Virus record (IMG/VR): IMGVR_UViG_3300008267_000668
Span: 1 to 35,499 of that record
DNA: 35,499 nt
Direction: 5' to 3' (one strand)
Source: a virus
The notes under the pieces are model-generated. The model did no database searches, was not told the origin of the DNA, and saw only the letters and a list, made by a program, of their open reading frames with translations. The translations under genes and the position numbers were made by a program. Shown here piece after piece: positions 529 through 21,122 of the stretch. Position 1 is the first letter of the stretch; every line of letters starts with the position of its first letter.

Positions 529-2484
529 ATGAGTTTCGTTCGTCGCTACACCAGCATGCCTTCTGCCGATGTGATCTCTCAGATCGAAGGCATCGTCATC
601 ATTGACCAGCCCATCCCGACCAACGTGCAGGGAGTCTCGACGGGCGTGGTTGGCATGGTTGGCGAGTTTGCTGACATGAAGTACGCCGTGTCGGTGGTGA
701 ATGGTGATGTGTCCACCAAGATCCAGCCGGTTGAGGTGGTTCCTGGTAGCGACCTGCTTGCCAAGGTGGGCGGATTCGACGAGACCCTTGGCGACTTTGG
801 TGGGGATGACGGCAACGGCTACGCTGCTCTGATCAACAAGCCTTGGGCGCGGTTGGTTGTGGCCACTGTGAATCTTGCCAGCCCCAAGGCCACCCGCGCA
901 TGGCGTGAGCTTCCGACCAATGTGGATGGAACCGCAACCCCGATCACCCCCGTGACGGCCGTAACCGTTCCTGCTGGCACGGTGTTCAAAGACACCAACG
1001 GGAAGTTGGTCAAGGTTGCGACATCGTTTACGTTTGAGTCGGATATCCCGTTTCTGACCGGAAACAATGCATCAATTCCGTTAGATACGGATGCTGTCGG
1101 TACAATTACTGTCACTGGTGCTGACTTTGCTGCTGCTGGTGTTAAGGTCGGAGATGCTGTTGTTTTGGGCAGCATCGGCGCAGGAACATATGCGGGAACA
1201 TATCGAATTGTAACCGTTGGATCGACAACTCTTTCAGTGCAGCAGCTTGATGGCTCCAACTTAAGCTGGCCGGCCTTGTCGGATATTTCATATCGCATTC
1301 ACCGTGCCGCTTCATTTGATACTGGTGGAAACACTGTTCTAACCAATACCTCTGGTTATACTCTTCCGGCACGTCCGCTGGAGGCTGTCGTTTCTGCTGC
1401 GGATTCAATGGATCCTGTGGTCGCTGCTCCTGCTGGATCGCTTTCAGCTTGGGAGCCTTTGTCCGGCTTGGTTCTTCGGGCACATCCAACGGCTGGACTG
1501 CCTTATGATGTCACCGTTCAGGCAGCCAATGCAGCAACCTCTACCGCGATTGAAACGCTGTACAAAAATGCACTGACCGCGATGTTGGCAGATGAGGATC
1601 CGATTGCGGATGTCTCCATCGTCTTTTCGGCGCGCACCTCGGATGACATCCGTACCGCGCTGCGCTCGCACGTTCGGACTGCATCCGCAACGGGTCGCGG
1701 CCGTGTGGCAGTGATCTCGCCCAAGCTGACCACGGTGTCGCTCACCACTGTGACCGGAAACACGGCAGAAGGTGTTGGTTACGCCCGTGACGAGCGCGTG
1801 ATCTACTGCTGGCCGGGGTTCCAGACGGTGATTGATGCCGCGCAGAACCTGCCCATCAAGCGCGCTGACGGAAGCACCTCCACGACCGGCAATGGCGTGT
1901 TGGATGTCCGTTCTGATGCCTACATGGCCAGCATTCTGTCCAATCTTGCCAGCGAACGGAACCCTGGGCAGTCGGCGGCCCCTGTTCCGACTTGCTTGCA
2001 GAGCGTGGTGGGTGTTCAGCTTGGCAGTGTGCCCAAGCTGAACATGGGCGACTACATCACCTTCCGTCAGTACGGTATTGCGGCCCCGCGCAAGGATCGT
2101 TCTTCGGGCTGGCAGTTCCAGAGCGGGATCACCACATCGCTGACGGCCAACCAGAAGAACATCAACCGGCGGCGCATGGCCGATGAGGTGCAGGACAGCT
2201 TGGCAGCGCTGTACGAGAAGTTCAGCAAGCTGCCGCTGACGATTGCGCTCAAAGACCAGATCGATTCGGAGACGGTTGCCTATTTCAACGGCCTTCTGTC
2301 CCCCAACAATCCGGCAGCGCAGCGGATTGAGGGCTTCCTTGTGGACAGCAAGAGCGGCAACACTGCTTCGCTGAACGCGCAGGGGATCTATGTGGTCATC
2401 ACCAAGGTTCGGATGCTTGGGATGGCAGATGACATCGTGATCCAGAGCGAGGTTGGCCCGACCGTTTCGGTTACTGTGGCCTAA
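529..2484 (+). CDS. Tail sheath protein
   Basis: A 651-residue protein, the contractile outer tail layer that rearranges on infection to drive the tube into the host. The C-terminal part (about residues 540-651) has the typical sheath signature: INRRRMADEVQDSLAALYEK, then a region ending in VITKVRMLGMADDIVIQSEV, like the conserved sheath C-terminal domain that links neighbouring subunits. The N-terminus (YTSMPSADVISQIEGIVII) also fits. Residues about 140-320 look like an inserted, probably surface-exposed beta domain rich in T, V, A and G. The DNA there is clearly less GC-rich (45-50% in hand-counted 60-base lines) than the conserved C-terminal part (57-58%). Start ATG 529 follows AGGAG at a good distance. 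The tube gene, usually the next gene, lies far downstream at 18238. Confidence 0.88.
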   Translation: MSFVRRYTSMPSADVISQIEGIVIIDQPIPTNVQGVSTGVVGMVGEFADMKYAVSVVNGDVSTKIQPVEVVPGSDLLAKVGGFDETLGDFGGDDGNGYAALINKPWARLVVATVNLASPKATRAWRELPTNVDGTATPITPVTAVTVPAGTVFKDTNGKLVKVATSFTFESDIPFLTGNNASIPLDTDAVGTITVTGADFAAAGVKVGDAVVLGSIGAGTYAGTYRIVTVGSTTLSVQQLDGSNLSWPALSDISYRIHRAASFDTGGNTVLTNTSGYTLPARPLEAVVSAADSMDPVVAAPAGSLSAWEPLSGLVLRAHPTAGLPYDVTVQAANAATSTAIETLYKNALTAMLADEDPIADVSIVFSARTSDDIRTALRSHVRTASATGRGRVAVISPKLTTVSLTTVTGNTAEGVGYARDERVIYCWPGFQTVIDAAQNLPIKRADGSTSTTGNGVLDVRSDAYMASILSNLASERNPGQSAAPVPTCLQSVVGVQLGSVPKLNMGDYITFRQYGIAAPRKDRSSGWQFQSGITTSLTANQKNINRRRMADEVQDSLAALYEKFSKLPLTIALKDQIDSETVAYFNGLLSPNNPAAQRIEGFLVDSKSGNTASLNAQGIYVVITKVRMLGMADDIVIQSEVGPTVSVTVA

Positions 2485-2522: not shown

Positions 2523-5500
2523 ATGCCTAAAGCACTGATAACGAACAACACCTCCTCGCCGGTAACACTCCCGCTTCCATACATGGGGGTGCTGCCGGCA
2601 GGCGGGGCAACGGTTGTAAACGACTCGGCTGCCTATGTGGTGGATCGCATCCTCCAAACGCCCGGAGCGCGAACCGTTCTGTCTGTTCGCACGGTGCCTG
2701 AGGACCAGAAGACAGATGGTGCCGTTCGTCCAATAGCAGCCCAGAAGATTACGGATGCTATGGAGGTCACCACCGTCAATCTGAGTCTCAACAATCAGCG
2801 GATCATCAACGTTGCGGATCCTATTGACCCGCAGGATGTGGCTACCAAGCAGTATGTGGATACCCATGGCGGCGGTGGGGGCGGCGGCAGTGGCACCGTC
2901 ACTTCTATCACGGCAGGTACGGGTCTGACGGGTGGTACCATCACGGTTGCGGGTACCATTGCTGTAGACTTTGGAACTACTGCCGGAAAGGTGACACAGG
3001 GTAACGATGCGCGGCTGAATCCTGTCCCAGGTTCGGCTGGTGCTATCGTTTATGATAACGGTACCGTTTACGCTCGCCTTGCTGTTGGTTCTATCGGGCA
3101 GGTTCTCAAGGTTGGTTCAGGTGGCGTGCCTGAGTGGAGTGCAGATTCAACCATCCCTACTGGACCGGCTGGTGGATCGCTCTCTGGCACTTATCCCAAC
3201 CCGACCATTGCTACGGGTGCAATCACCAACAGCATGGTTGCGGCTGGCGCTGGAATCCTGACCAGCAAGCTCTCCGGCTTGTTGACAGACATCCCCAACA
3301 ACGGGTTGTCTGCCTTCGCGGCAGCCAGTACGCAGGTGGTGCGGACCTATTACGTCACGGTCAACGGTAACGACACCACGGGAACCGGCTCTATCTCGGC
3401 CCCGTTTGCCTCCATCCAGAAGGCGCATGATGTTGCTGTAACGGCCTATCCTAGCAACGAGATGGTGCTGATCGATGTTGGCCCAGGATCGTTCACGGGC
3501 AGCGTCAACATCACTCGCTTCAATACGCTGGTGCAGGGACAGGGCCATCGAGCAGAGATGCTTGCCACTCAGGTGGTAGGCGATGTCACGGTTAATCCCT
3601 CGACGGCCACACAGAAGTACAGCCACCTTGTTGGCCTTGCCGGTATGTTCATCACGCCGGTATCGGGAAACACCGCTCCGGGCATCAAGGCAACGGGTTC
3701 GGGCCTCTATTCGTTGATCGTCAACGACTGCTATGTGACGACAAACAATGCAGCCGCTACCGCCAACTCGGTAGCGTGTGACGCAACCAACCTTCAGCGT
3801 CCTCGCCTGCTGATCAACGATTCGATCCTGACTATAGCGACGGCAGGCCCGAATATCGTTCAGCTTGATGGTGGCGATGTTCGGATAAACAACACCCAGA
3901 TCCTGCAAGGTTCGTCGGTTATCGTGGGTAGCGCTGGCACGGGCATCGTGGTGGCTAACGCTGCCACGTTGTGGCTGAACGGGTCGCTTGTAGAGACGCA
4001 AACCAATGGCCCCGGCATCAATGCAACGGGATCCTCGGCAGGTGTGAAGCTGATCCTGACCGGATCCAGCGTGACAACCAACTACACGGGCGTTCTGGAC
4101 ACGTCTCATGGCGTGTTGGTCAACAACGCGGCAGGGGTGGCGGCGTTCATCTATCAGACCACCTTCGGGGTGGCTGATACCTCGGCAGCGGTTTACGCTA
4201 TCACTGGATCTGCGCCTGCGGTGGTTGTGTATGGGGAGCTGACCTTCCAGCCGGGAACCAATAGCGCGATTGCCTCAGCAGTTACGCTCACCCCGATGGT
4301 TGAGAAGCACGCAACACTGAACCTTCCCAGCCTGACGGCATCGTTGCCGTTGCAGCTGGATGCCAACAAGAACGTGGTGGCGCAAGCTCTTGATATGAGC
4401 TTGCTGACGGGAACCTTGCCTGTCTCAAAGGGAGGCACAGGGATCTCTACTATCGGCGGCAACGGCACAGTGGCCTACAGCAACGGTACTACGCTGGCCT
4501 ACACCGACGCAGGGTTGGCAGGGTATCCGCTCCTGTCTGTTGGCGCAGGAAAGCCTCAGTTTGCTGCTTTGGATCTTGGGACAGGCGCAGTCACAGGCAT
4601 TTTGCCTAAGACAGCTCAGGCTGCTCAGGATGTGGCTGGTGACGTTACTGGCACCACCACTGCTACAACGGTAGAGAAGATTCAAGGTCGCACCGTTGAT
4701 GCAACGGCTCCCACCTCGGGTCAGGCGCTGGTGTGGTCTGGTTCTGCATGGGCACCTGCTACAATCTCCCCAGGTGGTGGAGGAGGAGGCGGCGGCGGTG
4801 GGCTAACCTACTACATGAACTATAGTGTTGCGGGTGATGCGCCGCTTCCTTCGGTGAATGCCAAGGAAATGTCGCTCATTTATAACACCGGGGGACAGGT
4901 CAATACCGGCGCCGTTACCGCACCTCAAGGCACCTATGCCACGCTGGCAGAGTTTGTCACTGATTTGAGCCAGCCCGGTGCTACTACGATTTCGCCTGGA
5001 AACTGGGACATCGCGGTCTACTTGAATCTTGGAACTGGTGCGAACAACACCTTTTTCCGTGCGCGTGTGTTCAAGTGGGATGGGTCTACTCTGACAGAGC
5101 TGTCTACATCCCCCTCGGATGATGTGGCTATTTCATCTACAGCGCAGCCCGAAATCTACACGGCAACTCTGTACATTGAGCAAACGACTCTGACGGCAAC
5201 GGAGCGCCTAGTTGTTCGGCTAGAGATCACCTGCGCAACTTCAGCCCCCCGTTCGGTGCTGGGCTACTTCGGCGGCAACACTCCGTCGCATGTTCACAGC
5301 ACCATTGGCGCTCCTGGTGGCACGGGACTGGTCAAGGTTGTAGACGGGATTGTTCAGGCTCCGGCATCCCTGCTTGTGAATGCTGACGTTTCTAGCCTAA
5401 CGGGTGGTACACAGGGAGGAATTCCCTACTTCAATAGCGCCACTTCACTTGCCTCGACTTCGACTCTCAACAACTACGCCATCGTCTTTGGTGGCGGGTT

Positions 5501-9204: not shown

Positions 9205-9789
9205 ATGGCACGCACGCTGATCTGGAACACCTCTGCAACAGCACAGACCCTGCCGGCCGCTTATGGCGGAGGCACGGTTCAGCCTGGCTATGGCTGGGTT
9301 GTGTCGGATGAGTCGTCCCTTGTGGTGGACGCTCTGGGCGGCTTTGCCGACATGCATGGCAAGTGGGCTGTGTCCGCCATCTCGACGGATGAGGCTCTCG
9401 GCTCTGTGGATATGGGCGCGGCTGGCGTTGCTCTCATCGAGAACGTGGTTTCGGCTATTGGCGGCGGTGGTGGTGGTGGTGGTGTCTCGTCATGGAACGA
9501 TCTGACGGACAAGCCAACCTTTGCTCTGGTTGCCACCAGCGGGAGCTATGCTGACCTGTCGAACAAGCCTGCGCTTGCAACTGTTGCGACCAGCGGCCTG
9601 TATAGCGATCTGAGCGGCACGCCTGAGATTCCTGCTGCGGGCAACGCAACTCCTGCTGCGGTCAGCGCAGTAGGTGGCGCGGGGGTTCAGACTGTTTGGG
9701 CGCGTGGCGATCATCAGCATGCACACGGCAACCTTGCCGGCGGCACCATGCATTCCACCGCAACTTCGATTGCGGCTGGCTTCATGTAA
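9205..9789 (+). CDS. Fibre protein N-terminal part: shared anchor plus first repeats
   Basis: A 194-residue product from ATG 9205 (GGAG upstream). Residues 1-45 (ARTLIWNTSATAQTLPAAYG...) are the third copy of the anchor found at 2523 and 6959. An eight-Gly linker follows near residue 86-93. Two 18-residue repeats of the ATSGSYADLSNKPALATV type come next (9532-9639), then a GDHQHAHGNLAGGTMH segment typical of phage fibres. The frame ends in TAA right after AAGFM, where related fibres usually continue. The same repeats resume in the -1 frame six bases after the TAA, so this is either a short fibre or the front half of a broken or recoded gene. Confidence 0.7.
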   Translation: MARTLIWNTSATAQTLPAAYGGGTVQPGYGWVVSDESSLVVDALGGFADMHGKWAVSAISTDEALGSVDMGAAGVALIENVVSAIGGGGGGGGVSSWNDLTDKPTFALVATSGSYADLSNKPALATVATSGLYSDLSGTPEIPAAGNATPAAVSAVGGAGVQTVWARGDHQHAHGNLAGGTMHSTATSIAAGFM

Positions 9790-10172
9790 CGGTGGCTACA
9801 TCGGGTGCATACAGCGACCTGAGCGGCGCTCCGGCTCTGGCAACCGTCGCAACCTCTGGGTCGTACAGCGACCTGAGCGGCGCTCCGGTTCTGGCAGATG
9901 TGGCCACCAGCGGCAGCTATGCTGATCTGACTGGAACTCCGACGCTGGCAACTGTTGCAGAATCGGGTTCCTATGAGGATCTGATTGAAACCCCCTCGCT
10001 GGCTCCTGTGGCTCTCACTGGCGCCTATGCGGACCTGTCTGGCAAGCCTGCGCTGGCAGCTGTGGCTACCACTGGCGCATATGCGGACCTGAGCGGTAAG
10101 CCTTCGCTGGCAACTGTTGCAACGTCCGGTTCGTATGCAGACCTGAGCAACAAGCCGGCGGCAGCCTATGAC
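9532..10172 (+). repeat. Tandem 54-bp coding repeats (18-residue fibre repeats) in two frames
   Basis: Two units lie at 9532-9585 and 9586-9639 in the frame of the 9205 gene. Seven more run from 9795 to 10172 (starts 9795, 9849, 9903, 9957, 10011, 10065, 10119) in the -1 frame. The consensus is ATSGSYADLSGKPxLATV, with Y-A/S-D-L-S as the invariant core. About 155 bases of non-repeat sequence carrying the frame change separate the groups. The units are similar enough at DNA level to allow unequal recombination and changes in fibre length. Confidence 0.85.
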
Positions 10173-10409
10173 ATTGCATCGTTTGCTTCTGGTTCGCTGG
10201 CGTTGAACGCTACCACCATGAAGTTGTACGCACCCAAGGCGCTGACACTCACGGCGCTGAATCAGGGTGGTGGTGCAACGGTCAAGATTCAAGTTGCAGG
10301 TGCAGACATCACCTATCCAAAGAGCGTCACCTCGGGCCAGGTTATTTCGGCTGTTGTGACCTCGGCGGGAACCGATAACTACTTCACGATTTCCGCCGTG
10401 GAGGCGTAA
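9792..10409 (+). CDS. Fibre protein C-terminal part: seven repeats plus tip domain
   Basis: Read here from GTG 9792, three bases after the TAA of the 9205 gene, giving 205 residues. Seven 18-residue repeats fill residues 2-127, followed by a tip domain beginning near AYDIASFASGSLALNATTM, which resembles the C-terminal tip of the 2523 fibre. There is no ribosome-binding site before GTG 9792, and the upstream in-frame TTG at 9696 is poor. It is therefore made by reinitiation after the TAA or by a -1 frameshift from the 9205 gene, or it is silent because of an indel or a sequencing error. The next gene starts on the last base of its TAA, indicating translational coupling. Confidence 0.6.
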   Translation: MATSGAYSDLSGAPALATVATSGSYSDLSGAPVLADVATSGSYADLTGTPTLATVAESGSYEDLIETPSLAPVALTGAYADLSGKPALAAVATTGAYADLSGKPSLATVATSGSYADLSNKPAAAYDIASFASGSLALNATTMKLYAPKALTLTALNQGGGATVKIQVAGADITYPKSVTSGQVISAVVTSAGTDNYFTISAVEA

Positions 10410-10691: not shown

Positions 10692-13685
10692 ATGGCCTCT
10701 GGCAACTGGCTTCTTACAACCGGCGGAAGCTGGAACAATAACGCAAACTGGTCTGGCGCGTCGTTTCCCAACGCAACAACGGATACGGCTACCTTTGCAA
10801 CTGATATTGCGGCTGATTCCACGGTAACGATGGGACAGGCGCTTTCTGTTGGCAGTATGACGTTTTCAGACAACGGTGCGTCTGGATCGGCTTGGGTTGT
10901 TGCTCCCGGAGGTGCATTTGCGCTGACGCTTGGTGCCAGTACGATTACTACCACCACAAATGCCACTATTCAGGCTGCATTAGCTGGTTCTTCTGCCATA
11001 ACAAAAGCAGGAGCGGCGATTCTTGCTCTTACGGGGGGCAGTTCAAACAGTGGCGCGTGGGCTATCAATGCTGGCACTTTAGATATAACCTCTGCGGCAG
11101 TGACTGGTGGCGGAATCATCACTGTGGCAGGCGGTGCAACGCTTACCACAGCAACAGCCATCGCCAAGCCTGTGACTGTCAATGGTGTTGTTTCGGTCAA
11201 CTCAGGTGGTAGCCTTACGGGGCAGCAAATCTACGCGAGTGCTGCTGGCGCCGTTGCCAAAGTAACCATTGCGAGCGGCGGGTCCATTACTCACCCAGCA
11301 AGCAAGTTTGACATATCCACAAGCACTTCTGGACGTACTGCCGTTTACCAGTACGGCAATGTTTCAACTACAGGAACAACGACTACCTATGGCATATCTC
11401 TTGGCTTTGGTGCAGCTTCCACAGCGTATGCCTATTGGTACGGAAAAAGCGGTACTCTAACTACAACTGCTGGTCCGTATTTGTTGGTGGGCCTTAGCTA
11501 TACTGCGGGAACAACGCTTCCCGGTGGCTCTCCGTCTGTTATGGACATTGATGGCGCAACGCTCGCTTTGAGCGGTCGTTTTTTCATCGGTAACAGCATA
11601 ACTTCGTCTGCCGCTGTTCACATTTTACAGGGCACCCATACACAGGCTTCCGGCTTTTCCTTGAATATTGGTGGGTCAGAGCTAGGCACCAATATTACCA
11701 GCGGGTCAGCAGAGCAGCGGTTCAGCGTAAGCGGGGCCAGCACTACGTTTACGTCAGCCGCTCCCGTAACTATGACGGCAAACTCAGCCAGTGCGTTGAG
11801 TCAGATCAATGTTTTGAATGGCGCCACGCTTACCGTCGCTGGTGGGTCTACTTCTGGAGCAACCCCTAAGCAGATCAACCTCAATAATGGCTCCATCTTC
11901 AAAAGCACAGCCTCATTTACTACGGCTGGTGGTTCATTCAACCTTTCGCTGTACGGAACCAGCAATAAAATAGGCGCCGGATCTGGTACCGCTGTACTTC
12001 CGGCAATCATCCAAAACACCACCGGGAACGGCGTTACATCTATTCCAATCACTCCCGGCAATGAAGGGGCGGACTATATAGGTGCGCCTGTTGTAGTTTT
12101 GACAGGAGGTGGTGGTGTAGGTGCGTCTGCTCGCGCTGTGTGGGACGAGACTACGAAGAAGATCACTTCTTTTGAGATTACGAATCCCGGTACAGGCTAC
12201 ACTTCACCTCCTACAGTAGTTTTGTCGGGCGCTACGCTGGCCAATAACTGTTGTACTGTTGAAGTTGTTCCGGGCACTCCGGTTATTGGCGCTAACAGCA
12301 CTGACGGGTCGATTGAAAAGCCTTCGGGAGACACCGGCACCCTTACTCTGACGGGAACCAACACCAACACTGGCATCTACACCGTTTCTGCCGGCACGCT
12401 GCGCATCGGTAACGCTGGAACCACAGGCACACTGGGTAACGGCAACGCATCAAACGCCGTCATTGCTTCCGGCGCGACTCTGGCCTTCGGGCGCAGCGAT
12501 GCTGTTACCTACAGCCAAGTCTTCTCTGGCGCAGGCACCATCGCCGTAAACGGAGGTGGCAGGGCAACGCTGTCTAGCGTCAACACGTTCACCAGCGCGG
12601 CTGCTGCTATCGCCATCAGCACGGCCAACAGCATTCTGCGCGTCACGAACAACGACTCCATCGGGCAGGGAACCACGTTCGGCATCACGGTGGCTTCCGG
12701 CACCGCTTTTGAAATTGACGGCACCTCGGGTAACATCACGGGGCTTCCCGCCAAGGCGTTGAGCCTGACTGGCACGGGCATCACGGCAGGCGGCGCACTT
12801 CGGAACATCGCGGGCAACAACACCTACTCGGGTGCTGTCACACTGGCCGCTGCCAGCCGCATCAACTCGGATGCTGGCACCCTGACGCTGAACTCAGCGT
12901 CGGCTATTACGGGCGCCACGTTCGGATTGACACTGGGTGGCGCTGGTACTCTGGAAATCAACCAAGCCATCAGCACTACCACTGGCGGCGTCATCAAGGA
13001 CGGCGCAGGCTTTACCGACCTCAAGGCTGCGGCCTCGACCTACACGGGCAAGACCACCGTGTCGGCAGGCACACTGGGCTACTCCACCGCTGCGGCTGCT
13101 GGATCAAACAGCAGCTTGGGTGCCCCCGCAGCAGGCGCAAACGCTATTGTGGACGTAGCGGGAGCCGCCACAGCAGGAGCTTCTGCCGGCGTTCGCTTCA
13201 CGGGCGCAGGATCTCAGACGTTCACTCGGACACTCAATGTCACAGGCGCGAACGCAGCCGGCCTGACCGTCCGAGTTGAATCCTCGGGAACCGGCTCAAT
13301 TACGCACTCAACAGCGTTCACCAACACTACGACCAACCAGCCCCGCACCTACCAGTTTGGTGGAACAGGCACGGCTTCCAATACGGTGAGCTTCCTGATC
13401 GCCAACAACGGCACTGGTGCTGTGTCTCTGACAAAGGCTGATGCTGGAACCTGGCGCTTGTCCAATACTTCTAGCTCGTACACTGGAGGCACATCAGTCA
13501 GTGGCGGTACGCTGGCACTCTCTATCCCATCTTGGGTTACGGGGGCCAAGGTAACAGGTACGGGGACTGTTACGGTCAACGCTGGAGCCAAAATTCAGAC
13601 GCTCTCAGCAGGAACGCAGCAGGGACGGCACACCTATCCCAATCTTACCTTTGCGGCGAACGGCCGCATCCGCATCGGAGGCTAA
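10692..13685 (+). CDS. Autotransporter-type beta-strand repeat adhesin
   Basis: A 997-residue protein from ATG 10692 (GGGAGA upstream). The N-terminus (GNWLLTTGGSWNNNANWSG) and repeats such as TLTLTGTNTNTGIYTVSAGT (about residue 550) and SSYTGGTSVSGGTLALS (about 928-944) match the autotransporter-associated beta-strand repeat, which builds long beta-helical stalks. A GTGYTSPPTVVLSGA hairpin motif lies near residue 505-520. There is no signal peptide and no outer-membrane barrel, consistent with a virion fibre and not a secreted autotransporter. Hand-counted lines before about 12300 are 43-52% GC, while a line near 12781 is 63%, so the gene looks like a fusion of two sources. It probably acts as an adhesive fibre. 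Confidence 0.75.
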   Translation: MASGNWLLTTGGSWNNNANWSGASFPNATTDTATFATDIAADSTVTMGQALSVGSMTFSDNGASGSAWVVAPGGAFALTLGASTITTTTNATIQAALAGSSAITKAGAAILALTGGSSNSGAWAINAGTLDITSAAVTGGGIITVAGGATLTTATAIAKPVTVNGVVSVNSGGSLTGQQIYASAAGAVAKVTIASGGSITHPASKFDISTSTSGRTAVYQYGNVSTTGTTTTYGISLGFGAASTAYAYWYGKSGTLTTTAGPYLLVGLSYTAGTTLPGGSPSVMDIDGATLALSGRFFIGNSITSSAAVHILQGTHTQASGFSLNIGGSELGTNITSGSAEQRFSVSGASTTFTSAAPVTMTANSASALSQINVLNGATLTVAGGSTSGATPKQINLNNGSIFKSTASFTTAGGSFNLSLYGTSNKIGAGSGTAVLPAIIQNTTGNGVTSIPITPGNEGADYIGAPVVVLTGGGGVGASARAVWDETTKKITSFEITNPGTGYTSPPTVVLSGATLANNCCTVEVVPGTPVIGANSTDGSIEKPSGDTGTLTLTGTNTNTGIYTVSAGTLRIGNAGTTGTLGNGNASNAVIASGATLAFGRSDAVTYSQVFSGAGTIAVNGGGRATLSSVNTFTSAAAAIAISTANSILRVTNNDSIGQGTTFGITVASGTAFEIDGTSGNITGLPAKALSLTGTGITAGGALRNIAGNNTYSGAVTLAAASRINSDAGTLTLNSASAITGATFGLTLGGAGTLEINQAISTTTGGVIKDGAGFTDLKAAASTYTGKTTVSAGTLGYSTAAAAGSNSSLGAPAAGANAIVDVAGAATAGASAGVRFTGAGSQTFTRTLNVTGANAAGLTVRVESSGTGSITHSTAFTNTTTNQPRTYQFGGTGTASNTVSFLIANNGTGAVSLTKADAGTWRLSNTSSSYTGGTSVSGGTLALSIPSWVTGAKVTGTGTVTVNAGAKIQTLSAGTQQGRHTYPNLTFAANGRIRIGG

Positions 13686-13689
13686 TCAC

Positions 13690-13992
13690 ATGGCTTTGCA
13701 GGTTTCGTTGACCCTTCCCCCGGTTCGTATTCCTGAGTCTCCCGAAGAGCCGAACGGCGAGATCGTCTATCCCGAGGCTTATGCCCGCATCCTCCAGATC
13801 CGTTCCGACGCTCAGGCTAGCTACCTGCTGGTTGCTTGGTACGAGGATTCGGCAGCACGGGAGCGAGGGGACGATCCGGTCAAGCTGTACGAATACGGCA
13901 CCCAGACTTCCAATCTGCCGGGAGACATCTATCCGGCTGCGTACAGTTATCTGAAAACCCTGCCCGACTTTGAGGGCGCAATCGACTGCTAA
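13690..13992 (+). CDS. Small protein of unknown function next to fibre genes
   Basis: A 100-residue soluble protein. ATG 13690 follows GGAGG (13677-13681); an earlier in-frame start at 13651 would overlap the adhesin gene and lacks a ribosome-binding site. The sequence has a proline-rich opening (LTLPPVRIPESPEEP), then a compact alpha/beta-looking region with EAYARILQIRSDAQASYLLV and a tyrosine-rich C-terminus. No membrane segment or catalytic motif is visible. Its place between two fibre genes suggests a fibre chaperone or small virion part. I do not recognise a family. Confidence 0.6.
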   Translation: MALQVSLTLPPVRIPESPEEPNGEIVYPEAYARILQIRSDAQASYLLVAWYEDSAARERGDDPVKLYEYGTQTSNLPGDIYPAAYSYLKTLPDFEGAIDC

Positions 13993-14009
13993 TCCGCAAG
14001 CAACAGTTT

Positions 14010-14052
14010 GACCAGCAATAGGGCTGGTCGCAAAGGGGGCCGGAAACCCCCT
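14010..14052 (+). promoter_or_regulatory. Two tandem hairpins in the leader of the coiled-coil fibre gene
   Basis: GACCAGC (14010-14016) pairs with GCTGGTC (14023-14029) around a six-base loop. AGGGGG (14034-14039) pairs with CCCCCT (14047-14052) around seven bases. No T run follows either. They end three bases before the GGGAG ribosome-binding site of the next gene, so they may stabilise the mRNA, keep the site open, or act as a processing signal for a highly expressed gene. Confidence 0.5.
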
Positions 14053-14066
14053 GTGGGAGTAGGCAA

Positions 14067-15962
14067 GTGGCAAATGTGAAGAAGTTCCTCTTTCTGGACA
14101 GCGATGGCCAGCTGCGTGAGCAGACTGCGACCGACACCGTTCAGGTGGCAAACGGCGTCAACTCGCTCGACGCAGTGAACAAGGGCCAGCTGGATGGCGT
14201 TGCCTCCGCTGCAACCGATCTGATCAATACTGAGGCGGCTCGCGCTGCTCAGGCTGAAGCCGCACTGGGTGACAGCATCACCGCAGAGGCAGCAGCACGG
14301 GTTGCTGGTGACGCGGCCCTGTCGGCCTCGCTGACCAGCGAGACCAACGCCCGCACGGCAGCAGACACGGCACTGGGTGGCCGTATCGACACTGAGATCG
14401 CAGACCGTCAGGCTGCTGTCTCGTCCGAAGAGGCCGCACGCATCGCTGGAGATGCGGCTCTCCGCACGGACCTGGATGCAGAGATCGCAGCCCGTATTGC
14501 TGCTGTTTCGGCAGAGGCTACTGCTCGTGAGAACGCTGATGACGCGCTGGATGCGCGGATTGACGCGCTCGAAACCTCCAGCAGCACTGCGCTGACCAAC
14601 GCGATCAACAGCCTGACTGCTGACCTTGAGGCAGAAGAGGCTGCACGCATCGCAGCAGATGCCGCCCTTCAGGCTGAACTGGATGCGGAAGAGGCTCGTG
14701 CGGCAGCGGCAGAGGCGGCAGAGCAGGCTGCCCGTATCGCTGCTGACAACGCACTCCAGAGCGAGCTGGATGCAGAGGAAGCCCGCGCCGCAGCCGCTGA
14801 GGCCGCAATCGCTGCTGACCTCGACACCGAGGAAGCCGCTCGCGCCGCTGGCGATCTGTCCAACGCCAACGCCATCGCGGCAGAGCAGTCCCGCGCACAG
14901 GCCGCTGAGGCAGAGCTGACCAGCGATCTGGCTGACGAGATCTCCCGCGCTGAGGCAGCAGAGGCTGCTATCGCGGCCGACCTCGCCACTGAGGTTGCAC
15001 GGGCCACGGCAGCAGAGGCAGCCAACCTTCAGGAGGCCAAGGACTACGCGGATGCCCGCGTGCAGGGTCTGTCCTTCAAGACTTCGGTTGATTACGCATT
15101 CAACCGCGTCCAGGGCGCACAGACCCTGCCGGCAGATGCAGCGGCCTTCGCGGCGGCTGAGGGTCTGGTTGCCGGCAAGCGCGTCCTGCTCTACAGCGAT
15201 GCGGCGCACGCTGACAACGGTATCTACGTTGTTGAGGCTGGTGGCACCTTCGCCCGCGCTGCTGACATGGCAGCCGGTTCGGATGCGGCTGGTTCCTACG
15301 TCTACGTTGAGGCGACCTCGGCTGCTGGCGCAGCTCCTGGCACCTCCTTCGTGTGCGCAAACGCAGGCACCGCAACCGTTGGCACCGCCGCGCTGGAGTT
15401 CGTGATCTTCAGCCGCGCAGAGAACCTGTCCTTCGGCGCAGGCGTGCAGAAGATCGGCACGGCTGTTTCGGCCAAGGTCGTTGCGGCCAAGCCGGTGTTC
15501 GTGGATGGCGACAGCCTGAGCTTCCGCACCACGGGTCCTGACCTGTCCATCGACGGCAGCGGCAACCTGAAGGTTGACGGCGACCTCGTTGGCGGCCAGT
15601 TCGTTGCGGCTGACGGCAAGCACACCCACGAGGCCATCGCCACTGTGGTTGAGTCTTCGGCAACCGTTGGCGTCTTCGTTGACACCTCGGGCGTGGCTGC
15701 AACCTACGATGCAGCGGCAGCCTTCGGTTGCGTCGATGCCAAGAGCGGCAGCGATGCTCGCGTGGTTATGGCTGGTCTGTCGGCCGTGGCCTCTGGCGCT
15801 CTGAACGCTTTCTCGGAGAACGAGAAGGTGTTCCTGGGCAGCGCCGCTGGTGTGTTCGCGAAGTACGCGGACATCCCCTCGGGCAAGTGGGCTGTTCCGG
15901 TTGGCTTCAAGAAGGGTTCCAAGCTCTTCGTCCACATGATGCCGGCCGCACAGAAGGCGTAA
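14067..15962 (+). CDS. Alanine-rich coiled-coil fibre with C-terminal beta domains
   Basis: A 631-residue protein from GTG 14067 (GGGAG at 14055). The opening VKKFLFLDSDGQLREQ and SLDAVNKGQLDGVAS resemble fibre anchor motifs. Residues ~45-330 are a long run of irregular repeats built on AARIAADAALQAELDAEEA, alanine- and glutamate-rich, most likely a trimeric coiled-coil stalk. Residues ~340-450 match a common phage-fibre domain (GLVAGKRVLLYSDAAHADNG then IYVVEAGG). The last ~75 residues carry a small beta-barrel-like domain (GALNAFSENEKVFLGSAAG). The DNA is the most GC-rich in the window (a counted line is 68%) with strong C/G third bases, suggesting high expression. It could be a tail fibre, collar whisker or head fibre. 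A terminator follows. Confidence 0.75.
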   Translation: MANVKKFLFLDSDGQLREQTATDTVQVANGVNSLDAVNKGQLDGVASAATDLINTEAARAAQAEAALGDSITAEAAARVAGDAALSASLTSETNARTAADTALGGRIDTEIADRQAAVSSEEAARIAGDAALRTDLDAEIAARIAAVSAEATARENADDALDARIDALETSSSTALTNAINSLTADLEAEEAARIAADAALQAELDAEEARAAAAEAAEQAARIAADNALQSELDAEEARAAAAEAAIAADLDTEEAARAAGDLSNANAIAAEQSRAQAAEAELTSDLADEISRAEAAEAAIAADLATEVARATAAEAANLQEAKDYADARVQGLSFKTSVDYAFNRVQGAQTLPADAAAFAAAEGLVAGKRVLLYSDAAHADNGIYVVEAGGTFARAADMAAGSDAAGSYVYVEATSAAGAAPGTSFVCANAGTATVGTAALEFVIFSRAENLSFGAGVQKIGTAVSAKVVAAKPVFVDGDSLSFRTTGPDLSIDGSGNLKVDGDLVGGQFVAADGKHTHEAIATVVESSATVGVFVDTSGVAATYDAAAAFGCVDAKSGSDARVVMAGLSAVASGALNAFSENEKVFLGSAAGVFAKYADIPSGKWAVPVGFKKGSKLFVHMMPAAQKA

Positions 15963-18237: not shown

Positions 18238-18666
18238 ATGGCGCAACGTCTGAAAGGCCAAGAGACAACGATCTTCGTGATGAAGGACGGGGTGAACGTG
18301 ACCACCCTGACCGACATCCGCAACTTCACCATGACCCCCAACTTTGACAAGTTGGAAGAGGGTTATCTGGGCGAGACGACCCAGCGATACGACGAGATCT
18401 TCAAGGGATGCAACTTCGACTTTGAGTGCCATCTGGAAGAGGCCGGGTTCACCGACTTCATTGTGGCGGTCAAGGAGCGGGCAACCCGACGCACCCCTGG
18501 GACGGTTATCAACATCTCTTGTTCTCTCTCCTTTGCCAATGGGCAGCGCCGCCGCATCATCCTGCGCGACTGCTTCTTCGCAGACATTCCGTTCAACGTG
18601 GGAAGCCGTTCGGACTACGCTTCCATCAAGCTGTCGGGAAGCGCCTCCGACTTTGACACCATCTAG
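18238..18666 (+). CDS. Tail tube protein
   Basis: A 142-residue protein with AAAGGAG before ATG 18238. It stacks into the inner rigid tube through which DNA passes. Length and pattern fit short myophage tube proteins: N-terminal TTIFVMKDGVNVTTLTDIRN, then MTPNFDKLEEGYLGETTQRY, which is typical of this class, and a beta-rich C-terminus ending in SGSASDFDTI. It lies immediately upstream of the chaperone and tape measure genes, the usual place for the tube. The unusual point is that the sheath is not the upstream neighbour. Confidence 0.82.
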   Translation: MAQRLKGQETTIFVMKDGVNVTTLTDIRNFTMTPNFDKLEEGYLGETTQRYDEIFKGCNFDFECHLEEAGFTDFIVAVKERATRRTPGTVINISCSLSFANGQRRRIILRDCFFADIPFNVGSRSDYASIKLSGSASDFDTI

Positions 18667-18703: not shown

Positions 18704-19075
18704 GTGAACGCATTTGAGCAGAAGCTGGGACTTCACACTGATTCGGATCGAGTCATCCATCGTTTTGCCGTTCCTGATTCCATTCCTGGGGAAATCCGCT
18801 CCCTTGGGCTGGTCGAGATCACCGCTGAGGAGGAGCTGAAGGCAGATGCACGTTGCCGAGGCGCTTCAGACAAGCGGGCGCAGGAGATGGCCAAGCAGGC
18901 TATCGTCGAGGTGAACGGGGAGCCTGTTCGCGTTGGCGATGGTTCGGTGGACCGGGCATGGAACAACATGCATCCGAAGGTGCGGACTCTGGTTTCTACT
19001 GCATGGGTACGGTTGCACTTGGCAAACGATGACGAGGTGGAGAGTTTTTTCGCCTCGCGCACCAGCAGCGTCTAG
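18704..19075 (+). CDS. Tail assembly chaperone, short form (gpG-like)
   Basis: A 123-residue soluble, mostly helical protein from GTG 18704 with AGAGG at 18692. It lies between the tube and tape measure genes, the fixed position of the tail assembly chaperone in long-tailed phages, where it coats the tape measure protein and recruits tube subunits. Its coding sequence contains a T-TTT-TTC slip site at codons 114-116, eight codons before its TAG. Most ribosomes should end here and a minority should shift to make the long form. Confidence 0.8.
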   Translation: MNAFEQKLGLHTDSDRVIHRFAVPDSIPGEIRSLGLVEITAEEELKADARCRGASDKRAQEMAKQAIVEVNGEPVRVGDGSVDRAWNNMHPKVRTLVSTAWVRLHLANDDEVESFFASRTSSV

Positions 19076-19320
19076 GCATTGAACGGGGACGGCTGCGCTA
19101 CTCACAGGCTATTCAACTGAGTGAGTTCGCAGCCGTCTTTGATCGCTATGGGAACAACGCTGCTCGGATCTGGAAGCTGTTGGCCTATGTGGCACGTTAC
19201 GGCCACCAGCCGGTCAATGTGTCCATGCGGCTTCCGATCCGAGACTTGCGCATGCTGGCAGAGCAACTTGGCAAGATTGTGGAAGAAGAGAACACACCCG
19301 CACAAGGGCGTGGTGATTAG
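18704..19320 (+). CDS. Tail assembly chaperone, long form made by -1 frameshift (gpGT-like)
   Basis: Ribosomes slipping back one base at 19045-19051 read TTT-TTT and then continue from CGC at 19051 in the -1 frame to TAG at 19318-19320. This gives 116 + 89 = 205 residues. The added part (GRLRYSQAIQLSEFAAVFDR ... YVARYGHQPVNVSMRLPIRD) has no start codon of its own at its beginning, is clearly protein-like, and fills the whole gap up to the tape measure gene. This matches the two-frame chaperone arrangement of phage lambda G/GT and P2 E/E'. A shorter open frame at 19121-19324 in another register is a decoy. Confidence 0.85.
19045..19051 (+). promoter_or_regulatory. Programmed -1 frameshift slip site T-TTT-TTC
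   Basis: The heptamer is in the exact register for tandem slippage (AGT TTT TTC in the zero frame). Five bases downstream, GCGCA (19057-19061) could pair with TGCGC (19094-19098) as a weak stimulating stem; I see no stronger structure. The zero-frame stop is 21 bases after the heptamer. Confidence 0.85.
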
Positions 19321-19337: not shown

Positions 19338-21122
19338 ATGGCAGATCAAGTCACAATCTCCACGTTCCTTGAGCTAAAGGACAACCTTTCGCCAGGGCTG
19401 GCCAAGGTTGAGGCGGCGCTCCAGCGCATGACTCAACAGGCTGCACTGATGAACGGTGCGCTTACCCGCGCAGCCGGCGCCTTGCGCCCCATGGATGCTG
19501 GCTTCAAGACGGTTGATACCCACCTTAAGAATGCATTAGCTCACGCAAACAAACTTTCGCTTGCTGTTAAAGGCATTAAGCCTCCTAAGCTTCCAGCTAT
19601 ACCACCTAGCAGGGGTGGTGGTGGCGGTGGTGGCGGTGGTGGGGGCGCAGGCGGAGGCGGCGTATTTAGGGGTGGGCGTGGGGTGCTGGATCCCACTTCA
19701 ATAGCTAGTGGTTTGGTAGCGTATGGGTTGCATAAAGCGGTCCACATGGCAGGCACGTTTGCTATAGATACCGTAAAGAAAGCCATTGAGGTAAACGTAG
19801 AATACGAAAAGTCTATATCCGCGATTTCGGCAGCCATGTATACAATGGGTGCATCTCCGGCTATGGATATAGCAGAAGCACATTCGAGTAGAGTTGTCAC
19901 AAAACTTCGAGAAATGGCCGCTGTGCTTCCTGGTGAAGCGGCAGAGTACGTTGAAGTTTTTCAGCGCACTATTCCCAATGCTTTTGCGTCAGGCATGCGG
20001 GACTCCATGAAGTACGCTGATTTTGTCTCTAAGTACACTGCTGTGGCTATTCAGCGCGGAGTAAGCGCAAAGATTGCCGCAACTAACTTGCAAATTTTGT
20101 TGCAGGGTACAGCCCGTGCCGGAACCAAAATGGCGCAGGTTCTTTCCGTTTACACAGGAAAAACTATCAACGAAATCAATAAGATGACACGAGCTGCGCG
20201 GTTTGAGTTGCTACAACAAGCAACCGAACAGGCTGCGGCCGGAATGGAGGCTTCTAAGACTAAGGCGGATGCTATTTTTGGTGAATTAAAGTCGCACATG
20301 GAAGAACTGTACCGTCTTGGTGGACAACCTATTTTTGATGCAGCAAAAAACGGCGCAAAAGAATTGAACACTTGGCTTGTTACAAACAAGTCTGCAATTG
20401 TGGAGTTAGGAAAAACGCTTACCACTGAAGTGGCCGATGTTCTTCGTGGCATTGTTACCATCGGCATGAAGATGGTTGATGTCGCAAAAATGATAAGGGG
20501 AGGCGAAGAGGGCGATCCTCGCGCTCGACTTGCTGCGCTACAGTCCCCATTTAGCGCATCCAACATCGGCACTCGTCTAGCATCCACATTGTTCCCGTTT
20601 TATGGGATTCCTGCTCAAGTTGGCCGTATAGGTGAAATGAAAAGACTTCAGGAGCAAATTAAAAAAGAAGATGATATTGCTGCTGCCAATAGAGAACGTG
20701 CAAAAATATACAAACCTCTAGAGGAAACGTATCGGTTTGGTGGCATTGGCGCAGGCATGCCAGCCGCAATGATCGCAGATCAAGCGCAGGAAATGATTAG
20801 ATCTGGCATGTTCAGCATGCTTAGAACAAAAACAGAACAGTCTTTGTCTGAGTATCTAAAATACAAAGGAGTGTCAGAAGAAGATATTCAACGTGTTCAC
20901 GATGAGCTTATTGGGCGTGGTGTGTTCAAGCTGACTGCCGCTCCTGAAGATCGGACAAAACCTCCTGTCAACGACTTTCGTTACAGCCGTTTCGACATCC
21001 GGCAGGAGTTTGCGGAAGGGTTTGATCCTGATCGGATAGCGGCAGCGTTTGCCACTGACCTGAACAAAATGGCGGATAAGAAGTTGAATGCCGCTTCTGC
21101 CTTGCCTGTTGGGGGGCGCTAA
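19338..21122 (+). CDS. Tape measure protein
   Basis: A 594-residue protein that fixes tail length and occupies the tube. ATG 19338 follows AAGGAA. The N-terminus (LKDNLSPGLAKVEAALQRMT) is helical and typical. A Gly-rich linker lies at about residues 93-113, followed by a hydrophobic helical region near 120-145 (SGLVAYGLHKAVHMAGTFAI), and long helices fill the rest. The C-terminus NDFRYSRFDIRQEFAEGFDP is a conserved myophage tape-measure end. At roughly 1.5 angstrom per residue the tail would be near 90 nm, quite short. Interior DNA is GC-poor (37-47% in counted lines) against 58% at the conserved end, with many rare-type codons, suggesting replacement of the core. Confidence 0.85.
   Translation: MADQVTISTFLELKDNLSPGLAKVEAALQRMTQQAALMNGALTRAAGALRPMDAGFKTVDTHLKNALAHANKLSLAVKGIKPPKLPAIPPSRGGGGGGGGGGGAGGGGVFRGGRGVLDPTSIASGLVAYGLHKAVHMAGTFAIDTVKKAIEVNVEYEKSISAISAAMYTMGASPAMDIAEAHSSRVVTKLREMAAVLPGEAAEYVEVFQRTIPNAFASGMRDSMKYADFVSKYTAVAIQRGVSAKIAATNLQILLQGTARAGTKMAQVLSVYTGKTINEINKMTRAARFELLQQATEQAAAGMEASKTKADAIFGELKSHMEELYRLGGQPIFDAAKNGAKELNTWLVTNKSAIVELGKTLTTEVADVLRGIVTIGMKMVDVAKMIRGGEEGDPRARLAALQSPFSASNIGTRLASTLFPFYGIPAQVGRIGEMKRLQEQIKKEDDIAAANRERAKIYKPLEETYRFGGIGAGMPAAMIADQAQEMIRSGMFSMLRTKTEQSLSEYLKYKGVSEEDIQRVHDELIGRGVFKLTAAPEDRTKPPVNDFRYSRFDIRQEFAEGFDPDRIAAAFATDLNKMADKKLNAASALPVGGR

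Follow-up and report, generated by a model that had tools for sequence, protein, structure and literature searches.

A predicted G/GT-type tail assembly chaperone gene with a conserved T_TTY slip site in an uncultivated contractile-tailed phage

The chaperone locus and its neighbourhood

The window analysed here is the whole stretch of 35,499 nucleotides of IMG/VR virus record IMGVR_UViG_3300008267_000668. It carries a short gene, with an open -1 frame at its 3' end, between a tube-like and a tape measure-like gene. The features referred to in the text are as follows.

529..2484, + strand: tail sheath-like protein (phrog_23, E 7e-7)
18238..18666, + strand: gene preceding G, 142 aa, probably encoding the tail tube (major tail) protein (marginal match to phrog_365, E 0.08; position)
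18704..19075, + strand: short form, G-like tail assembly chaperone (G), 123 aa, GTG start, ends in TAG
19034..19039, + strand: GAGGTG, Shine-Dalgarno-like, directly upstream of the slip site; a possible but weak stimulator
19045..19051, + strand: slip site T_TTT_TTC, 0-frame AGT TTT TTC; the family-wide core T_TTY is 19045-19048 here
19051..19320, + strand: -1 frame extension, T-like domain (T), 89 aa plus stop; helical bundle
18704..19320, + strand: GT, the product predicted to arise by frameshifting, about 205 aa: residues 1-116 of G joined to the -1 extension of 89 residues
19338..21122, + strand: 594-aa protein resembling a tape measure (PHROG tape-measure match weak, E 0.0016; position)

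Both reading frames and the slip site can be read directly from the DNA. The codons AGT (114), TTT (115) and TTC (116) are followed by seven codons and TAG, which makes TTC the eighth codon before the stop, where an earlier note on this DNA had placed an in-register T-TTT-TTC. The -1 frame is open from 19033 to 19320 and encodes 89 residues from 19051 to its TAG stop at 19318-19320. The same note had described this extension as lacking a start codon of its own and as filling the gap to the tape measure gene, and both descriptions hold: the earliest ATG, GTG or TTG in the -1 frame of the window is a TTG at 19180, deep inside the extension, and the extension ends 17 bases short of the tape-measure ATG at 19338.

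The order of tube-like gene, chaperone gene and tape measure-like gene, followed by baseplate genes, is kept in relatives; the tube-like and tape-like assignments are based on weak profile matches together with gene order. The baseplate V and J genes of the window (PF04717 and PF04865), together with the sheath-like gene, indicate a contractile tail. The sheath-like gene (529-2484) lies about 16 kb from the block of tube, chaperone and tape genes (18238 onward), with fibre-like, lysis and HNH genes between them; in phages the sheath gene is usually adjacent to the tube gene.

Two large ORFs in the window probably encode fibre-like proteins. One, of 997 residues (10692-13685), lies within the phage tail module and contains four passenger-associated transport repeats (PF12951, E 1e-16); the other, beside it at 14067-15962 (631 aa), has a weak match to the YadA stalk. 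A 648-residue open frame antisense to the latter (13989-15935, - strand) is most likely a composition effect. Upstream of these, two overlapping ORFs in different frames (9205-9789 and 9696-10409) both match PHROGs 17509 and 31472, and could be either two paralogues or one repeat-rich gene in which a change of frame has split the ORF.

The G and T domains and their relatives

The AlphaFold model of G (pLDDT 89.7) has its best PDB fold match in 2ob9, the HK97 tail assembly chaperone (Foldseek probability 1.00, E 0.01, TM 0.51/0.58), which is the closest solved fold to G at 15% identity. Fold matches in BFVD, mostly at E 1e-3 to 1e-1, include tail assembly chaperones and Mu FS-gp41 (E 0.027, probability 0.96). 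These matches are of moderate strength, and the structure prediction supports a tail-chaperone fold for G. T is modelled as a helical bundle with a pLDDT of about 96 over residues 41-80, and its core is built around the conserved motif A[FY][LV][GA]RYGHQ, in line with the earlier reading of the extension as a conserved helical protein. A fold search with T in BFVD returned no strong match (best E 0.012).

All relatives were drawn from IMG/VR virus records, and the window, itself such a record, is counted among the 28 distinct loci in which a G-like ORF is followed, in the -1 frame at its end, by a T-like domain. Four close relatives (L002/L003, L004, L005 and L014) share about 80% identity in G, begin G with ATG in place of the GTG of the window, and keep T TTT TTC followed by GCC TCG CGC. 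Profile scans, one of them with a G profile built from a subset of the G alignment, added about 25 more divergent loci, with identity down to about 21-30%. With the G profile, a G ORF was found upstream of every T match, and of the 30 loci with a complete junction, 29 have T in the -1 frame relative to G, the exception being L032. The loci of the family are related and so do not represent independent events; their divergence is large.

Within the close clade, dN for the T frame is 0.2-0.5 and dS 0.7-3 (close to saturation in some pairs), with third positions of the -1 frame taking most of the changes. This pattern shows purifying selection on the T domain as translated in the -1 frame.

Taken alone, the heptamer and the open -1 frame of the window are suggestive only. 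Canonical heptamers occur in register 14 times in its 10,424 codons, synonymous recoding that keeps the residues ..SFF.. produces an in-register heptamer within the overlap in 11% of cases, and the p for an open run of 89 codons is about 0.03. It is the conservation across relatives that takes the arrangement far beyond chance.

The family appears to be absent from the reference collections as we searched them, although the kind of gene is already well known. Searches of the 50,697 phage records of INPHARED by tblastn, using G and T of the window, G of L010, L011 and L018, and T of L026, gave no match. Neither G nor T of the window matched Pfam or PHROGs at E<=0.1, and no meaningful match was found there over the 28 members. 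Among long-tailed phages, frameshifted chaperones are broadly conserved and frequently annotated wrongly; here, the lack of a Pfam, PHROGs or INPHARED match would leave G and T unnamed and T missed. Comparison of the T and G profiles with genome contigs yielded no confirmed hit and no host.

Conservation of the slip site and alternative routes to T

The sequence T_TTY occurs at the same codon in all 28 loci, in DNA of 50-70% GC. The codon aligned with codon 115 of the window invariably encodes Phe, in 89% of cases as TTT, and the preceding codon, which encodes D, S, G, A, N or L, ends in T in 27 of 27 loci (28 of 28 when L074 is included); in L014, for example, GAT (Asp) stands in place of AGT (Ser) and the T is retained. 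Under a null of 500 trials of synonymous recoding with each locus's own codon usage, a T before this Phe, seen in 28 of 28 loci, is expected in a mean of 7.3 (maximum 14), and T_TTT, seen in 25, in a mean of 2.1 (maximum 6). A third-position T predominates only in the Phe codon and the codon before it; the other G codons average near 0.1. The constraint is thus evident at the nucleotide level.

The canonical heptamer that the earlier note had emphasised stands for the window and its clade of five. The form T_TTT_TTN is found in nine of the 28 loci (this clade, L011, L028, L034 and L041); the other 19 have T_TTY only, as T_TTT_CTN in 16, T_TTC_CTC in two and T_TTC_AAG in one. The heptamer is therefore lost in many relatives that keep the extension, an outcome that the note would have taken as evidence against the frameshift. 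However, T_TTY, which -1 slippage needs, is kept in all 28, and so it is the heptamer as a general signal that fails and not the frameshift; on the aligned sequences, T_TTY and not the canonical heptamer is the family-wide signal. On a tree of the family, canonical and non-canonical sites are clustered but do not form two clades, and the tree has four to five changes between them; long branches limit this reading.

In the codon before Phe, positions one and two vary freely, from which we infer that re-pairing is needed from tRNA-Phe alone; this suggests that a single tRNA-Phe slips at the non-heptamer sites. A review gives Z_ZZN as the shortest sequence required for almost all -1 frameshifting (PMC5009743), and T_TTY has the same form; in comparison with that general tetranucleotide, it is here the portion of the slip site that barely varies within a divergent family of phage genes. 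Annotated tail-chaperone frameshifts often use non-heptamer motifs (PMC10885494). One codon earlier, some non-heptamer loci carry G_GGT_TTY (L021, L022, L027, L031 and L033), and L018, L020, L023 and L029 carry G_GAT_TTT, which as G_GAU_UUU is a shift site in pea enation mosaic virus (PMC5009743).

Two loci depart from this pattern. A 29th locus, L084 (3325-3345), lies outside the 28 with T_TTY: at this position it has ATA AAA AAA TTC, and thus A_AAA_AAA, and its T remains in the -1 frame, as would be expected of a conserved -1 slip site. In L032 (4400-5174) the frame of the T domain is +1/-2 when G is taken as the reference, the sequence at the site is ATG TTT CTC with no T before TTT, and an ATG is present at 4851, 38 bases past the beginning of the G stop codon. 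T could be started independently from this ATG; ribosomes may instead shift +1 on that Phe codon, and UUU_Ynn is reported to be prone to +1 shifting in bacteria (PMC5009743). In the window, the +1 frame closes two codons past the G stop, and a +1 reading was rejected there.

The ATG of L032, together with CTG codons that many loci have in the T frame on or close to the G stop, raises the question of whether T is a gene in its own right, initiated by a non-AUG or coupled start located where G ends or beyond; a frameshift would then be unnecessary. However, a search for an independent start found no position conserved across the family: no locus has ATG, GTG or TTG in the 45 bases that precede the G stop, and inside T these codons are only scattered, while L019, L030, L031 and L034 have no start codon, even counting CTG, in the stretch that begins 45 bases before that stop and ends 60 bases after it. 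A separate gene would also leave unexplained both the T before Phe in 28 of 28 loci and the A_AAA_AAA of L084, and we consider it very unlikely.

Explanations that turn on the T run itself fare worse still. Polymerase slippage on the six consecutive T's of the window could yield the -1 product at transcription and not at the ribosome, but most relatives have only four T's (GAT TTT CTC) or fewer (TTTC), and runs of four or fewer are too short for polymerase slippage. The register of the site relative to the codons is moreover invariant, and transcriptional slippage is in our estimation extremely improbable. Homopolymer runs are also prone to error, and an assembly or sequencing error, or gene decay, could split one ORF into two. 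Against this, the same frame break is seen in independent contigs, about 29 in number and derived from many metagenomes, the C-terminus of G is conserved, and the T run is six long in some contigs and four in others; the recurrence of the break refutes error or decay, and we give it a negligible probability.

Stimulatory elements are less apparent than the slip site. Downstream RNA structure in the window does not exceed chance (z 0.0), two of 27 loci (L030 and L033) fall below -4 with the others near chance, and no conserved hairpin or pseudoknot was found downstream of the site in these 27 loci. Upstream, the strongest anti-Shine-Dalgarno dip in the gene across the family lies 18 to 7 bases before the site; it is matched by 12 of 500 synonymous recodings and is largely accounted for by the Glu-rich protein. 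A Shine-Dalgarno-like stimulator is thus a weak candidate.

Predicted products and comparison with known systems

Taken together, the gene order, the HK97 chaperone-like fold of G, the conserved -1 helical domain without a conserved start and a slip site kept at the nucleotide level in 28 loci make it very probable that this gene is the G/GT-type tail assembly chaperone gene of an uncultivated contractile-tailed phage, expressed through a programmed -1 frameshift. This supports the frameshifted tail chaperone of the earlier note as the predicted product. That slippage occurs, its efficiency, the ratio of G to GT and the role in tail assembly are what we infer from these features. The majority of ribosomes would terminate at 19075 to give the short chaperone G, while a minority would slip back one base at T_TTT_TTC and add 89 more residues to give GT, with the helical T domain at its C-terminus. 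In this step the tRNA-Phe on TTT, and in the window also one on TTC, would re-pair with TTT.

Lambda gpG and gpGT are likewise a short chaperone and a -1 extended form encoded between the major tail and tape-measure genes; G binds the tape measure and GT brings in tube subunits (PMC5009743). By analogy, many copies of G per GT may coat the tape-measure protein, with T recruiting tail-tube subunits. The lambda gene differs in its slip sequence and has no sequence similarity to the window gene. Its slip sequence is G_GGA_AAG. Mu, a contractile-tailed phage, also has a frameshifted chaperone, FS-gp41, without a sequence match to the window gene; its shift is -2. P2 E and E+E' resemble the present system in the contractile tail, in the position of the gene between the major tail and tape-measure genes and in the T_TTT_TTN slip class; the P2 site is TTTTTTG and has no downstream hairpin (PMC3091744), just as none is conserved here. 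The P2 system differs in that sequence similarity is undetectable (no Pfam or PHROG match) and in that most relatives of the window have T_TTT_CTN and not the heptamer.

We tentatively propose, as a reading that is plausible though somewhat short of probable, that this unlisted chaperone family shifts on a bare U_UUY, with one peptidyl tRNA-Phe slipping while a Leu codon (CUN) occupies the A site. The heptamers would then be a local form, and swaps to A_AAA_AAA (L084) or to a +1 shift at UUU_C (L032) would keep the T domain. The natural series of sites in the family (T_TTT_TTN, T_TTT_CTN, T_TTC_CTC, T_TTC_AAG and A_AAA_AAA) makes one- versus two-tRNA slippage testable in one protein context.
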